A stretch of DNA of 64,000 bases from a virus, in the IMG/VR virus record IMGVR_UViG_3300030333_003061, positions 4,750 to 68,749 of that record, one strand, 5' to 3'. The notes beneath the pieces were generated by a model. It was not told where the DNA came from, did not search any database, and was given only the letters and a program-made list of their open reading frames with translations. Shown piece after piece: positions 41,774 through 60,315 of the stretch. The translations under genes were made by a program, and so were the position numbers. Positions within the stretch are counted from its first letter, which is position 1. Each line of letters begins with the position of its first letter.

Positions 41774-42022
41774 ATGACATGGTATTCAGTAGTTAGGAAA
41801 TCGTCTATAGGAGATAAGTTCCTTAAAAATAGAGTTCGTATATACTATGAAAGGTTAAGATTGGCTAAATGGATTAGAGATATGGACATTAATAGGCAAA
41901 ATAAAAGTATTACAGTATATGTATATCCTGATACCGTTGGATTATTAATTGGAATAAGAGGAGAAACAGTAAATAAGTTATCAGAATCCATGGGTTGGAC
42001 AATTAATATTAGAGGAAGATAA
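41774..42022 (+). CDS. KH-domain protein with W-tag start
   Basis: 82 residues from ATG at 41774, where it begins MTWYSVVRK, matching the late tag. A longer frame begins with a TTG at 41696, without ribosome site. The C-terminal half, ITVYVYPDTVGLLIGIRGETVNKLSE, is a KH domain with the GxxG-type loop IGIRG, so it should bind RNA. GGTTGA lies 7 bases before this ATG. Confidence 0.55.
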   Translation: MTWYSVVRKSSIGDKFLKNRVRIYYERLRLAKWIRDMDINRQNKSITVYVYPDTVGLLIGIRGETVNKLSESMGWTINIRGR

Positions 42023-42023
42023 T

Positions 42024-43220
42024 ATGTCGATGTATAAGGCTATGATGGAACTCCAGAAAAAGGAGAGAAAAACGCCCAATCCTTATGTTAGAAATCAAAA
42101 GAAATACAAACCCCATCATTCGCCGCCAAAAAATATAGATTTAATTTCTGACGAAAGAACAGATGATGACAAAATGGAAATAATACTTGATGAACTTTGG
42201 GAATTAGTTCAAACAGGTTATATAAAAGATGATTACGGTGAAATATGGGATGCTGAACAAAAGCCAGGGCAAATATCGTTTAATGAATGGGTGGAAAATA
42301 ATTATATAACAGATGAAGATATATTCGAAATATATCAAGATGTTATTGAAGATGTTTTTAGAGAAAAAGGGGTAGATGAAGCAGTAAAATGGTGGGATAG
42401 CGCGAAAATAAGAATGTTTGTTCCTCCATCTACTGCTAGAGGTAGAGAGATTGGAGACTCTTTAGAAGGATTTAGTCCTACTAGAGAAGTTAAGGTAAAA
42501 GATGAAAGAAGTGATGATGGAGCATATATACATGCAAATGAAACAGGAGACCTTAGACCACAAGGAGAGCAATTAGTGCCTATTGGAGCAAGTGATTACA
42601 ATAAAAATAAAAAACAGGATTTAGTAACATTTGTTAATTCTACATTAGGAAAAGCAAAAGAAAAGTTTACTAATAATATTATTGGGCCAAATAAAGAAGT
42701 TAATGTAATAATTTATACTCATTGTGATGATAAATTACCTGATGGGGTAGCAGTAAAAGTATTAGAATTAATAAAGCGTGGTCATCAATTTGGTAAAATT
42801 AAAATGGATAAATATGGAGATTATGTCCAGGGCCATAAAAGAAAACAATATGAAATTGAAAGAGAAGAAGAATATCCAGAAAGGCCAAATATAACGGAAA
42901 GAGATAGATTAACAGGAAGGGCAAGATGGAAAAACGAACCAACAAGTGAAGACAGAAAAAAAGAAGGTTGGCAAAAAGTATTAGAAACAACAAATCCATC
43001 TTTACAAGACACTAAAGATATTACAGTAACTAGCAGAATAATTAGGACACAGAAAGGTAGTGATAGACAATATAAAAATTATGTTATGATAGTTCAAGGA
43101 GATTATCCATTGTTTATGGCAGGAATAAGAGTTAATTGGGATATGGATGCAGATGAACGAACATTAACTGAAACAGAACCTTTCATTAATGAAGAAGTAT
43201 TAAATTGGAGGAAATGGTAA
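42024..43220 (+). CDS. Hypothetical late protein
   Basis: 398 residues. Begins MSMYKAMMELQKKERK (no W-tag) and ends EEVLNWRKW. Mostly helical and charged; ASDYNKNKKQDLVTFVNSTLGKAK and VIIYTHCDDKLPDGVAVKVLELIKRGH in the middle. Not recognised. Its last codons overlap the ribosome site of the next gene. Confidence 0.55.
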   Translation: MSMYKAMMELQKKERKTPNPYVRNQKKYKPHHSPPKNIDLISDERTDDDKMEIILDELWELVQTGYIKDDYGEIWDAEQKPGQISFNEWVENNYITDEDIFEIYQDVIEDVFREKGVDEAVKWWDSAKIRMFVPPSTARGREIGDSLEGFSPTREVKVKDERSDDGAYIHANETGDLRPQGEQLVPIGASDYNKNKKQDLVTFVNSTLGKAKEKFTNNIIGPNKEVNVIIYTHCDDKLPDGVAVKVLELIKRGHQFGKIKMDKYGDYVQGHKRKQYEIEREEEYPERPNITERDRLTGRARWKNEPTSEDRKKEGWQKVLETTNPSLQDTKDITVTSRIIRTQKGSDRQYKNYVMIVQGDYPLFMAGIRVNWDMDADERTLTETEPFINEEVLNWRKW

Positions 43221-43613
43221 ATGGATTGGAAAGAACTAATAAAGAATGTAGATTTTGGTGGTAGTCAAGGTAGAGCCGATAGAAAGAAAAACATACCTGA
43301 AAAACCTACAAATCCCTTTTCTAAGAAAAAGGTAAGACCTAGCGGAAATAGAGTAGATAATACTGTTCCTAAAGGTAAAATTCCTCATAATAAATGTGAT
43401 TCTTGGCCCGATTGTAGAAATAATGCTACTAAGTATTGTTATGTTTGTTGCATGAAAGCCTGTGATGAATGTTATCCTTTATTTGGTGGTGGTCATCCTA
43501 GTAGACCATTTGATGGAGACCCAGATTATTATGAGCATTGTAATATTGATTCAGTAACAGGTGAATCAAAAGAAGTAGAAGAAGATAAATATTCATCAGG
43601 AAAGGATTGGTGA
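43221..43613 (+). CDS. W-tagged B-box-like zinc protein
   Basis: 130 residues. MDWKELIKN tag, a Lys/Pro-rich linker, then CDSWPDCRNNATKYCYVCCMKACDECYPLFGGGH, a double zinc (B-box-type) module, as also present in the gene at 52390. Zinc modules of this kind act in protein contacts. Probably a virion or assembly protein. Confidence 0.6.
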   Translation: MDWKELIKNVDFGGSQGRADRKKNIPEKPTNPFSKKKVRPSGNRVDNTVPKGKIPHNKCDSWPDCRNNATKYCYVCCMKACDECYPLFGGGHPSRPFDGDPDYYEHCNIDSVTGESKEVEEDKYSSGKDW

Positions 43614-43617
43614 TTAT

Positions 43618-44151
43618 ATGAAATGGTTTGAATTAATAAAAAGACAAAGACCTAGAAAGCGTAGATATAAGCCTGTGGCTAATATATTTGAAGGAGAAAA
43701 AATTCGTGATGAAGAAAGAATTGACCAACAAAAGAAAGAAGGCAGAAAGGGAAGTCCTTTCAAAAGAACAGGTCTTGAAGGAAGAGATATTCAAGATAGA
43801 AAAGAAAAGTTTGAATTACAAAGGCAAAGAACGCATCATAATCCAAGAAATGTTTCTGCCGAATTAGGTGGAAGAAGTCGAGGAGGATTTTATGGAAAAG
43901 AAGAAGGAACTTCTAGAACACAAACTCCTAAAGGTAGATGCGCAATGTGCTCAAAAGCAATAAGTAAAAATAGTTCTTGGAAGAGAGAAGATAGGTTATT
44001 AACTACAGGAGAAATAGGAAGAATGAGATATTGTTATAGATGCATGAAAGAATTAGGTGGCCCTAAAGGATTTGTTAAAGACAAGAGCCTTTCTGGTAGG
44101 TCTACTGATGAGTTAAGTGCAATGCAAAGAGCAAGGCAGGGTAAAGAATGA
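43618..44151 (+). CDS. W-tagged basic zinc-binding protein
   Basis: 177 residues. MKWFELIKRQRP tag, long Arg/Lys-rich region, and RCAMCSKAISKN ... YCYRCMKELGG near 107-145 as a Cys4 zinc site. Not otherwise recognised. Confidence 0.6.
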   Translation: MKWFELIKRQRPRKRRYKPVANIFEGEKIRDEERIDQQKKEGRKGSPFKRTGLEGRDIQDRKEKFELQRQRTHHNPRNVSAELGGRSRGGFYGKEEGTSRTQTPKGRCAMCSKAISKNSSWKREDRLLTTGEIGRMRYCYRCMKELGGPKGFVKDKSLSGRSTDELSAMQRARQGKE

Positions 44152-59130: not shown

Positions 59131-59285
59131 AAAAAGAATGGGATATAGATTGGGAATACTGGAACGCACAAGTGGAAGGATTCAAAGCACTTAAAAAGAA
59201 AAAGAAACTTTGGCGTGACCACAAAAATGAAAACAAAGAAATAGTTGATAAAATATATGAATGGTTTTGGGAGGTTGGAGAATGA
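59127..59285 (+). CDS. 52-residue Trp-rich peptide
   Basis: KKEWDIDWEYWNAQVEGFK then KKKKKLWRDH and YEWFWEVGE. Trp-rich, no typical tag. ATG overlaps the previous stop and its last codons carry the next ribosome site. Confidence 0.45.
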   Translation: MKKEWDIDWEYWNAQVEGFKALKKKKKLWRDHKNENKEIVDKIYEWFWEVGE

Positions 59286-59635
59286 CTTGGATGGAAGTAT
59301 TAAAAGGAATAGAAACTGAATGGATTTCAGATTGTTGTAATACTGTAAGCCGAAGTATTATAAATGATTTTAAAGGAACAGGAACCAATGAATGGGATAA
59401 ATGGATAAAATTTGTTAAAGAATCTACACTTAATGGTAATTGTGAAGAACTATTAGAAGAATTAAATAAAATAGAAGACCATAACGGAATGGAATATTTC
59501 CAAAACGAATATTTGGATGGAATTACACTAACAAGCGGTGAAATAGCAGACTTATATTTACGACTAAGAGATTACACTAGAGATTATGAAGAATGCATAG
59601 AAGACTTAACGGGCTTAGACCACAGATTTAGATGA
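59282..59635 (+). CDS. W-tagged late protein
   Basis: 117 residues. MTWMEVLKGIE tag; helical and acidic. The frame continues upstream to 59261 but the tag and GGAG site mark the start here. Not recognised. Confidence 0.5.
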   Translation: MTWMEVLKGIETEWISDCCNTVSRSIINDFKGTGTNEWDKWIKFVKESTLNGNCEELLEELNKIEDHNGMEYFQNEYLDGITLTSGEIADLYLRLRDYTRDYEECIEDLTGLDHRFR

Positions 59636-59646
59636 GAGGGATTAAT

Positions 59647-59931
59647 ATGGATTGGTTTAAATTAATTAAAACAAGAAGAGGTAAAAGACTTGACCATAAT
59701 ATGGAAAGAATACTTAGAGAAAAATTAACTACTCCAATGTCTACTTATCAAATTATTGGTCTTCTTTCTGACGGGATTCGTGAAATAAATGACGGAAGAA
59801 AACTAACAAATCAAAGACCATTATCTACTAGAGGAATACCTGATAGGTTATCATTGCCTCATATGCTTAAAGTGCATCCTAATATACGGATAATACCAGG
59901 ACACACAGCAGAATATGTTTGGGAGGAATAA
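59647..59931 (+). CDS. W-tagged late protein
   Basis: 94 residues. MDWFKLIKTRRG tag; then TYQIIGLLSDGIREINDGRKL and SLPHMLKVHPNIRII, winged-helix-like. GGGATTAAT before the ATG. Not recognised. Confidence 0.5.
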   Translation: MDWFKLIKTRRGKRLDHNMERILREKLTTPMSTYQIIGLLSDGIREINDGRKLTNQRPLSTRGIPDRLSLPHMLKVHPNIRIIPGHTAEYVWEE

Positions 59932-59934
59932 TAT

Positions 59935-60315
59935 ATGACTTGGTTTGAAACAATTAAAAAATCCAAAGTGGATTTATTTATAGAAAGATATTTACAATTC
60001 AATGCTGATGTTAGAGGTCTTCATGGAACAGTAAAAAACCCTGAAGGATTTTTACCAAATCATGTTGTTACTGCTAATGAAGATAATGTAAATGATAGAA
60101 TTAGAGAAGTAATTAAAAATTATAAGTCTATTCTTAAATTGGGAACAAGAGGACAAACTATTGGAGATGCTAATTATGATAAGTCAAAGCCTATCGGGTA
60201 TCAAGTTAAAATTACACCGGAAGAAAGAAAACAATATGAAGAATTTATACAAGATTTAGAAGATTTGATTAAAACAGAATCTAAGTATGATAATTGGAAA
60301 AAGGAGAATGAATGA
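59935..60315 (+). CDS. W-tagged late protein
   Basis: 126 residues. MTWFETIKKSK tag; mixed helical with YQVKITPEERKQYEEFIQDLEDL at the end. Not recognised. Directly before the terminase. Confidence 0.5.
   Translation: MTWFETIKKSKVDLFIERYLQFNADVRGLHGTVKNPEGFLPNHVVTANEDNVNDRIREVIKNYKSILKLGTRGQTIGDANYDKSKPIGYQVKITPEERKQYEEFIQDLEDLIKTESKYDNWKKENE

Follow-up and report, generated by a model that had tools for sequence, protein, structure and literature searches.

Encapsulin cargo-loading peptides are short, portable sequences that bring unrelated cargo into an HK97-fold shell, usually from the C-terminus of one or a few cargos and in a cellular compartment. In bacteriophage T4, the ten N-terminal residues of the internal protein IPIII are sufficient for packaging, with residues 4 and 7 serving for targeting and residues 8 and 10 for processing, and similar capsid-targeting sequences (CTS) are found on the variable internal proteins of T4 relatives (PMC9026906). 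GFP fused to a CTS is packaged in T4, and the proteins IPI and Alt have roles inside the host cell (PMC9958956). In herpesviruses, the C-terminus of the protease-scaffold binds the capsid protein (PMC12474303). The giant phages SPN3US and phiKZ have many head-packaged proteins, several of them processed by the prohead protease (PMC10052503). Here we describe a tag, M-x-W-x-x-h-h-K (h, hydrophobic), on late proteins encoded in 64,000 nt of viral DNA (the window), which corresponds to positions 4750-68749 of the 86,117-base IMG/VR record IMGVR_UViG_3300030333_003061. As with the CTS of IPI, IPII and IPIII, some ten N-terminal residues are common to differing, variable accessory proteins, the key targeting residues would be spaced i, i+3 (W3 and I6 here, 4 and 7 in T4), and the genome has a prohead protease and a scaffold (PMC9026906, PMC9958956).

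Late genes lie on the + strand of the window and early genes on the - strand. The initial annotation had named 21 late genes that start with such a W-tag and, when we read the sequence directly, all 21 were found to encode M-x(1-3)-W-x-x-h-h-K/R (Table 1). The strict pattern M-x-W-x-x-h-h-K, searched at the DNA level, matched the window exactly at 12 places, each of them on the + strand, where 0.16 would be expected from shuffled sequences. Over the whole 86-kb record, tagged open reading frames (ORFs) represent 21 of the 67 called on the late strand and none of the 67 called on the early strand. Some of the tags are looser: those at 44807 and 52910 have one additional residue ahead of the W, three residues separate M and W at 52390 (MDKIWEETIK), and a T occupies position 6 at 52223, 52390 and 59935. 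Three copies had been overlooked, one C-terminal, one internal and one N-terminal (MNEWFNVVK, at record position 69542, just downstream of the window).

The terminase large subunit was used as query to fetch related loci, and the resulting set of 80 IMG/VR loci around terminase relatives, together with the window, contains 459 tag starts, every one of which lies on the same strand as the terminase, with no case on the opposite one. After removal of near-duplicates, 279 M-x-W-x-x-h-h starts were kept, which gave the consensus M-[STND]-W-[EFKQ]-[DNES]-[IV]-[LI]-K (in percent from position 2, S62 N12 T9 / W / E24 F23 K19 Q15 / D37 N16 E15 S10 / I67 V23 / L60 I20 V14 / K89). Conservation ends at residue 8: K8 carries 3.55 bits of information, position 9 has 0.69, and the positions from 12 onward have about 0.2-0.3; an alignment of 150 cluster representatives reads MSWxxILK, followed by essentially no consensus. 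When the strands of nine long genomes were compared, 116 of 589 late-strand ORFs were tagged vs 3 of 499 on the early strand (p about 1e-29). The statement that no early protein is tagged stands for the window (0 found), but has to be softened for the relatives, where rare exceptions occur, two of them clear cases. Four relatives taken whole, in which the major capsid protein (MCP) is only 53-57% identical, have 7-22 tags each.

With their first 12 residues masked, the 666 tagged late ORFs of the related loci fall into 219 unrelated body clusters, and for this reason common descent of the tagged proteins was rejected. A figure for conservation within clusters was dropped as circular, since cluster members had been picked by the tag pattern. 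Tagged clusters are short (median 105 amino acids, aa) and offer few recognisable domains, namely KH, zinc ribbons and an HExxH sequence. When 150 tagged representatives were scanned against Pfam, PHROGs and PADLOC, the few matches were scattered, each in one or two members, and a Foldseek search with the tagged 109-aa protein gave no match. An identical body type can be seen with and without the tag, for example among GNAT proteins (cluster 19), and in a family of 124 members (record 71743-72090) some members have an insert between body and tag, the tag still being foremost. Gene content near the tags is highly variable. Untagged late proteins are interspersed among the tagged ones, and the tag is therefore selective: it was never found on the core virion proteins (terminase large subunit 0/81, portal 0/83, S78 protease-scaffold 0/86, MCP 0/83) or in clusters downstream of the MCP, and replication proteins are also untagged. 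Transmembrane-like stretches were detected in 0 of 219 tagged representatives vs 112 of 563 untagged ones; a fairer comparison, because untagged representatives can include spurious ORFs, is that of clusters with at least three members, where transmembrane segments occur in 0 of 67 tagged and 8 of 64 untagged clusters. We also observed, at G041:83832-89600, a local paralog expansion, in which several adjacent tagged proteins have the longer start Wxx[IL]LKNIQI in common. In a family encoded between the portal and ligase genes (record 70259-71746; window-equivalent 65510-66997), Phe or Tyr replaces the W of the tag at the protein start (MNFMEIL, MSFMDILR, MSYMDILR), which may be another form of this signal.

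The tag is not confined to protein starts. Six distinct C-terminal copies lie a few residues from the stop codon (MDWRTVLKGN, DWRQIVKMVQ and TDWRMIVKC among them, each ending at the stop), with none on the opposite strand. They come mainly from one conserved late family, that of window 49760-50941, in which the C-terminal W is kept in 17 of 17 non-redundant members and the K in 14 of 17. Internal copies occur too, including VNWQNILK in a 688-aa window protein whose two halves have no relatives among the fetched loci. The C-terminal and internal copies therefore indicate a portable peptide and not a start-site effect.

The late operon unites the S78 protease, portal, MCP and terminase (PF04586 E=8e-10, PF04860, PF17236 and phrog_38, respectively), as in a Caudoviricetes head module. 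The genes for the portal, a DNA ligase, a fusion of the S78 prohead protease with a coiled-coil scaffold, and the MCP are found downstream of the window. When a profile made from tag positions 2-6 only was run over all large untagged clusters, the top matches at a fixed position were the C-termini of the protease-scaffold, of an 83-aa family and of the C-terminally tagged family, with median scores of 11.0 and 9.1 vs shuffled medians of 2.9 and 0.7. Among untagged core proteins, the best positionally fixed match is formed by the ~12 C-terminal residues of two families, the prohead protease-scaffold fusion, with MSWGDIHNL (n=44: M36 L5 I3 / S42 / W44 / G26 D6 / D33 E11 / I37 L4 V3 / H38 / N33 / hydrophobic), and the small neighbouring 83-aa coiled-coil protein, with M[DS]WxDIH (n=60: M59 / D32 S15 E11 / W60 / x / D30 E22 Q8 / I59 / H27 N17). 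The tip W is invariant in 39 of 39 aligned scaffolds, and the tip motif is retained in the relatives with an MCP only 53-57% identical. The fusion ends in a conserved short tail, as herpesvirus scaffolds do. The AlphaFold2 model of the protease-scaffold (mean predicted local distance difference test score, pLDDT, 52, which is low) shows a long helix at residues 299-377, a linker and a separate helix at 391-402 starting from the tip W. In the model of a tagged protein (mean pLDDT 82) residues 3-9 are helical, which would place W3, I6 and L7 on one helix face. The tag motif also matches within the MCP (LWLSV[LM]K) at residue ~402 and within the late ligase at residue ~42, but both matches probably have structural reasons and were discounted. 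A profile search of the PDB with the protease-scaffold returned nothing relevant.

The tag is portable between termini, specific to late-strand accessory proteins and similar to the tip of the virus's own capsid scaffold, and from this resemblance it most likely serves as a postcode by which proteins are loaded into the head as it forms. We propose, with a probability of about 0.62, that it imitates the scaffold tip and docks soluble cargo in the procapsid in the manner of a T4 CTS. The tag would be a short amphipathic docking helix, M-x-W-x-x-I-L-K, mimicking the C-terminal tip (M-S-W-x-D-I-H-N-L) of the protease-scaffold fusion and of the small coiled-coil protein that accompanies it. If herpesvirus scaffolds are a guide, the tip probably anchors the scaffold to the inner side of the MCP shell, and tagged cargo would take this site, or one like it, while the head assembles. 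We infer that tag and tip share a binding site, that this site lies on the capsid protein, and that the cargo is then enclosed in virions and probably ejected with the DNA into the host, like the T4 internal proteins. The initial annotation had already suggested a docking signal that brings cargo to capsid, scaffold or protease, an idea that gains indirect support from the W-x-[DE]-I fixed at the scaffold and coiled-coil tips, the C-terminal copies, the confinement to the late strand, the untagged core proteins and the lack of membrane segments in tagged clusters. The parallel that it drew with T4 capsid targeting is of function, not of descent.

The tag differs from the T4 CTS in sequence, ending in hydrophobic-hydrophobic-Lys, in its number of tagged genes per genome (7-22 vs a few in T4), in its additional C-terminal and internal positions and in its resemblance to the virus's own scaffold tip, and the protease is of the S78 type here but gp21 in T4. 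By analogy, then, it may work like a CTS while standing outside that set, being far more numerous, scaffold-tip-like and not restricted to the N-terminus. The protease-scaffold fusion with its conserved short C-terminal tail recalls herpesvirus UL26/UL26.5 in architecture; no herpesvirus cargo is known to copy the scaffold tail. Like the ejection proteins of SPN3US and phiKZ, many proteins would reside in the head. However, SPN3US propeptides span 20-254 residues and end at an A-x-E cut site, about 80% of the SPN3US head proteins stay uncut, and these ejection proteins are not known to have a single short tag in common (PMC10052503). By eye, the late proteins of Halogranum virus HGTV-1 have no comparable common N-terminus.

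Several observations weigh against the proposed docking tag. Tag and tip match at M-S-W-x-D-I and then diverge (L-K vs H-N-L), so that the two may bind different surfaces. Serine codons are biased in the tag and give no DNA-level link between tag and tip. A match to PAP2, a family made up mostly of membrane enzymes, was obtained for one tagged representative, yet none of the tagged representatives has a transmembrane-like stretch. Finally, two genuine early-strand genes are tagged (G009:68372-68689 and G015:3003-3740, both on the - strand), one of which is a GNAT-like gene in the replication operon of its genome while the other, in a second genome, lies beside a late-type neighbour; a third early-strand tagged ORF, in a third genome, is a doubtful match.

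The tag could also be mainly a processing signal, if the S78 prohead protease recognised W-x-x-h-h-K, recruited the proteins through its active site and cut after K8. Two presumed maturation sites are conserved in all aligned relatives: GN-x-[LVM]-L-K-[SAG] (GN[ASTN][LVM]LK-[SAG]), which is invariant some 30 residues into the MCP (record 76306-77691), and F-x-I-[LI]-K-S, which is invariant in the protease (record 75101-76309). Since hydrophobic-Leu-Lys is invariant at these sites, the final I-L-K of the tag, which resembles them, may be cut by the prohead protease, and cleavage after K8 is possible; the sharp drop in conservation past K8 and the joining of targeting and processing residues in the T4 CTS are in line with this. 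However, the residue that follows K8 is mostly K, E, A or N, unlike the S/A/G of the MCP and protease, which lowers the case for a pure cleavage site. Moreover, the C-terminal tags stop 1-6 residues past the K, where a cut would remove almost nothing, and the scaffold tip has W-x-D-I but no h-h-K. A main role in processing seems unlikely. Within the docking proposal, the tag may combine docking (W3, I6) with processing (L7, K8), a step that is uncertain. Somewhat better placed, though still improbable in our view, is a tag that docks on the scaffold or protease, for example on the coiled coil or the 83-aa protein, and not on the MCP, with the tip self-associating at the same site and the same role in procapsid loading. 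The motif does recur on the scaffold and on the adjoining small coiled-coil protein, and in T4 the internal proteins are purified together with the scaffold protein gp22 (PMC9026906), but the scaffold tip would then have to bind scaffold, whereas herpesvirus tips bind the MCP instead.

Localisation outside the head, at a membrane, a virus factory or the tail, has little to recommend it: an amphipathic tryptophan helix could in principle bind a membrane or another hub, but replication proteins, which a factory needs, are untagged, the motif is common to head-assembly proteins, and no tagged cluster has transmembrane segments. Least probable of all, and by a long way short of likely, is that the conserved start is a nucleic-acid signal and not a peptide, either a translation enhancer or a recombination seam for cassette swapping. 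The very variable gene content around the tags and a Ser2 codon that is AGT in 87% would agree with it, but codons for Leu, Ile, Lys, Asp and Gln differ at their synonymous positions among 163 distinct 24-mers, copies are found at C-termini and within proteins, and different Ser codons are used for this peptide start in the scaffold tip. The varied synonymous codons and the C-terminal and internal copies argue strongly against a translation-start or DNA signal, which was rejected on these grounds, and point to a short linear peptide motif. As for the serine itself, AGT is used for Ser2 in 87-96% of tags in the relatives, whereas its share of Ser codons is 24% over the genome and about 55% where untagged genes have Ser at position 2. 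The scaffold-tip Ser codon is mostly TCT or TCA, unlike the AGT of the tag, and an origin of the tag from the scaffold gene at the DNA level was rejected because of this difference.

Table 1. Tag copies and the terminase gene in the window (window coordinates).
Feature	Position	Strand	Basis
Tag MTWYSVVR, 82-aa KH-domain protein (41774-42022)	41774..41797	+	PF07650 E=5.7e-5
Tag MDWKELIK, 130-aa Cys-rich protein	43221..43244	+	direct reading, DNA pattern
Tag MKWFELIK, 177-aa basic Cys-containing protein	43618..43641	+	direct reading
Tag MNWWEILK, 110-aa basic protein	44148..44171	+	direct reading, DNA pattern
Tag MKWFDFIK, 109-aa protein	44481..44504	+	direct reading
Tag MMNWMKLLK (one extra residue), 242-aa protein with HESGH	44807..44833	+	direct reading
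Tag MSWFGILK, 124-aa protein	45540..45563	+	direct reading, DNA pattern
Tag MTWFTVLK, 254-aa protein	45911..45934	+	direct reading, DNA pattern
Tag MTWFDLVK, 119-aa protein	46672..46695	+	direct reading
Internal copy VNWQNILK (DVNWQNILKAEMAP), between the two halves of the 688-aa protein 47028-49094	48021..48044	+	
Tag MNWWNIIK, 43-aa ORF	49669..49692	+	direct reading, DNA pattern
C-terminal copy MDWRTVLK (then GN and stop), 393-aa protein 49760-50941	50909..50932	+	
Tag MTWMKIIK, 76-aa protein	50943..50966	+	direct reading, DNA pattern
Tag MSWENIMK, 108-aa protein	51829..51852	+	direct reading, DNA pattern
Tag MSWELTLK, 53-aa zinc ribbon	52223..52246	+	direct reading
Variant tag MDKIWEETIK, 127-aa Cys-rich protein; ordinary tags in some orthologs (cluster 45)	52390..52419	+	
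Tag MSWKKILK, 46-aa protein	52773..52796	+	direct reading, DNA pattern
Tag MTHWFSVLK, 336-aa protein (cluster 34)	52910..52936	+	direct reading
Tag MTWLELLK, 668-aa protein, conserved large tagged family	53922..53945	+	direct reading, DNA pattern
Tag MSWENILK, 139-aa protein	58395..58418	+	direct reading, DNA pattern
Tag MTWMEVLK, 117-aa protein	59282..59305	+	direct reading, DNA pattern
Tag MDWFKLIK, 94-aa protein	59647..59670	+	direct reading
Tag MTWFETIK, 126-aa protein	59935..59958	+	direct reading
Terminase large subunit, untagged	60287..61756	+	phrog_38 E=1.3e-52

Magrovirales are viruses of Marine Group II archaea, with genomes of 90-110 kb in which PolB replication and morphogenesis modules are oppositely transcribed. 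PolB, an ATP-dependent ligase and an S78 protease were found here, the modules are divergent, and relatives reach 103 kb. The virus and its relatives probably infect ocean archaea, and a tentative assignment to Magrovirales is made from gene content and layout. The PolB ORF at 9584-11284 (-) encodes the exonuclease and only part of the polymerase domain, and the gene may be split. ATP-dependent DNA ligase is encoded twice: a complete enzyme in the early operon at 19230-20771 (-), and a large one of 838 aa in the late head operon (record 72545-75061; window-equivalent 67796-70312, +), which adjoins the scaffold genes and has a family of 120 related ORFs. It is unusual for a ligase to be late and linked to the head genes. 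The 184,733-base viral contig G029 has two different MCP genes, 64% and 61% identical to the query and about 91 kb apart, and is either a joined assembly or a double genome. A scan of genome contigs gave only one match (L352, NZMJ01000101.1), titled as a Maricaulis metagenome-assembled genome, with a terminase 87% identical to the query; this contig in a bacterial assembly is probably mis-binned virus DNA. The tag is unmentioned in the magrovirus genome paper PMC10160649, and a full-text search that covered part of the magrovirus papers found no report of it, so that an earlier mention is possible.

We offer a wider version of the proposal more tentatively, at somewhat less than even odds, in which the scaffold tip has been turned into a general import postcode. 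A soluble protein gaining eight residues at either end would be loaded via the scaffold sites, maybe trimmed by the head protease, and delivered with the genome, each virion carrying some 10-20 different proteins drawn from hundreds of families. If the proposal is right, one eight-residue rule would identify packaged cargo in uncultured marine viruses across hundreds of protein families that are as yet unknown, and many of these would probably act on the host early in infection. It would also provide a directly testable scaffold-mimic mechanism for the loading of HK97-fold heads, as well as a portable loading peptide.

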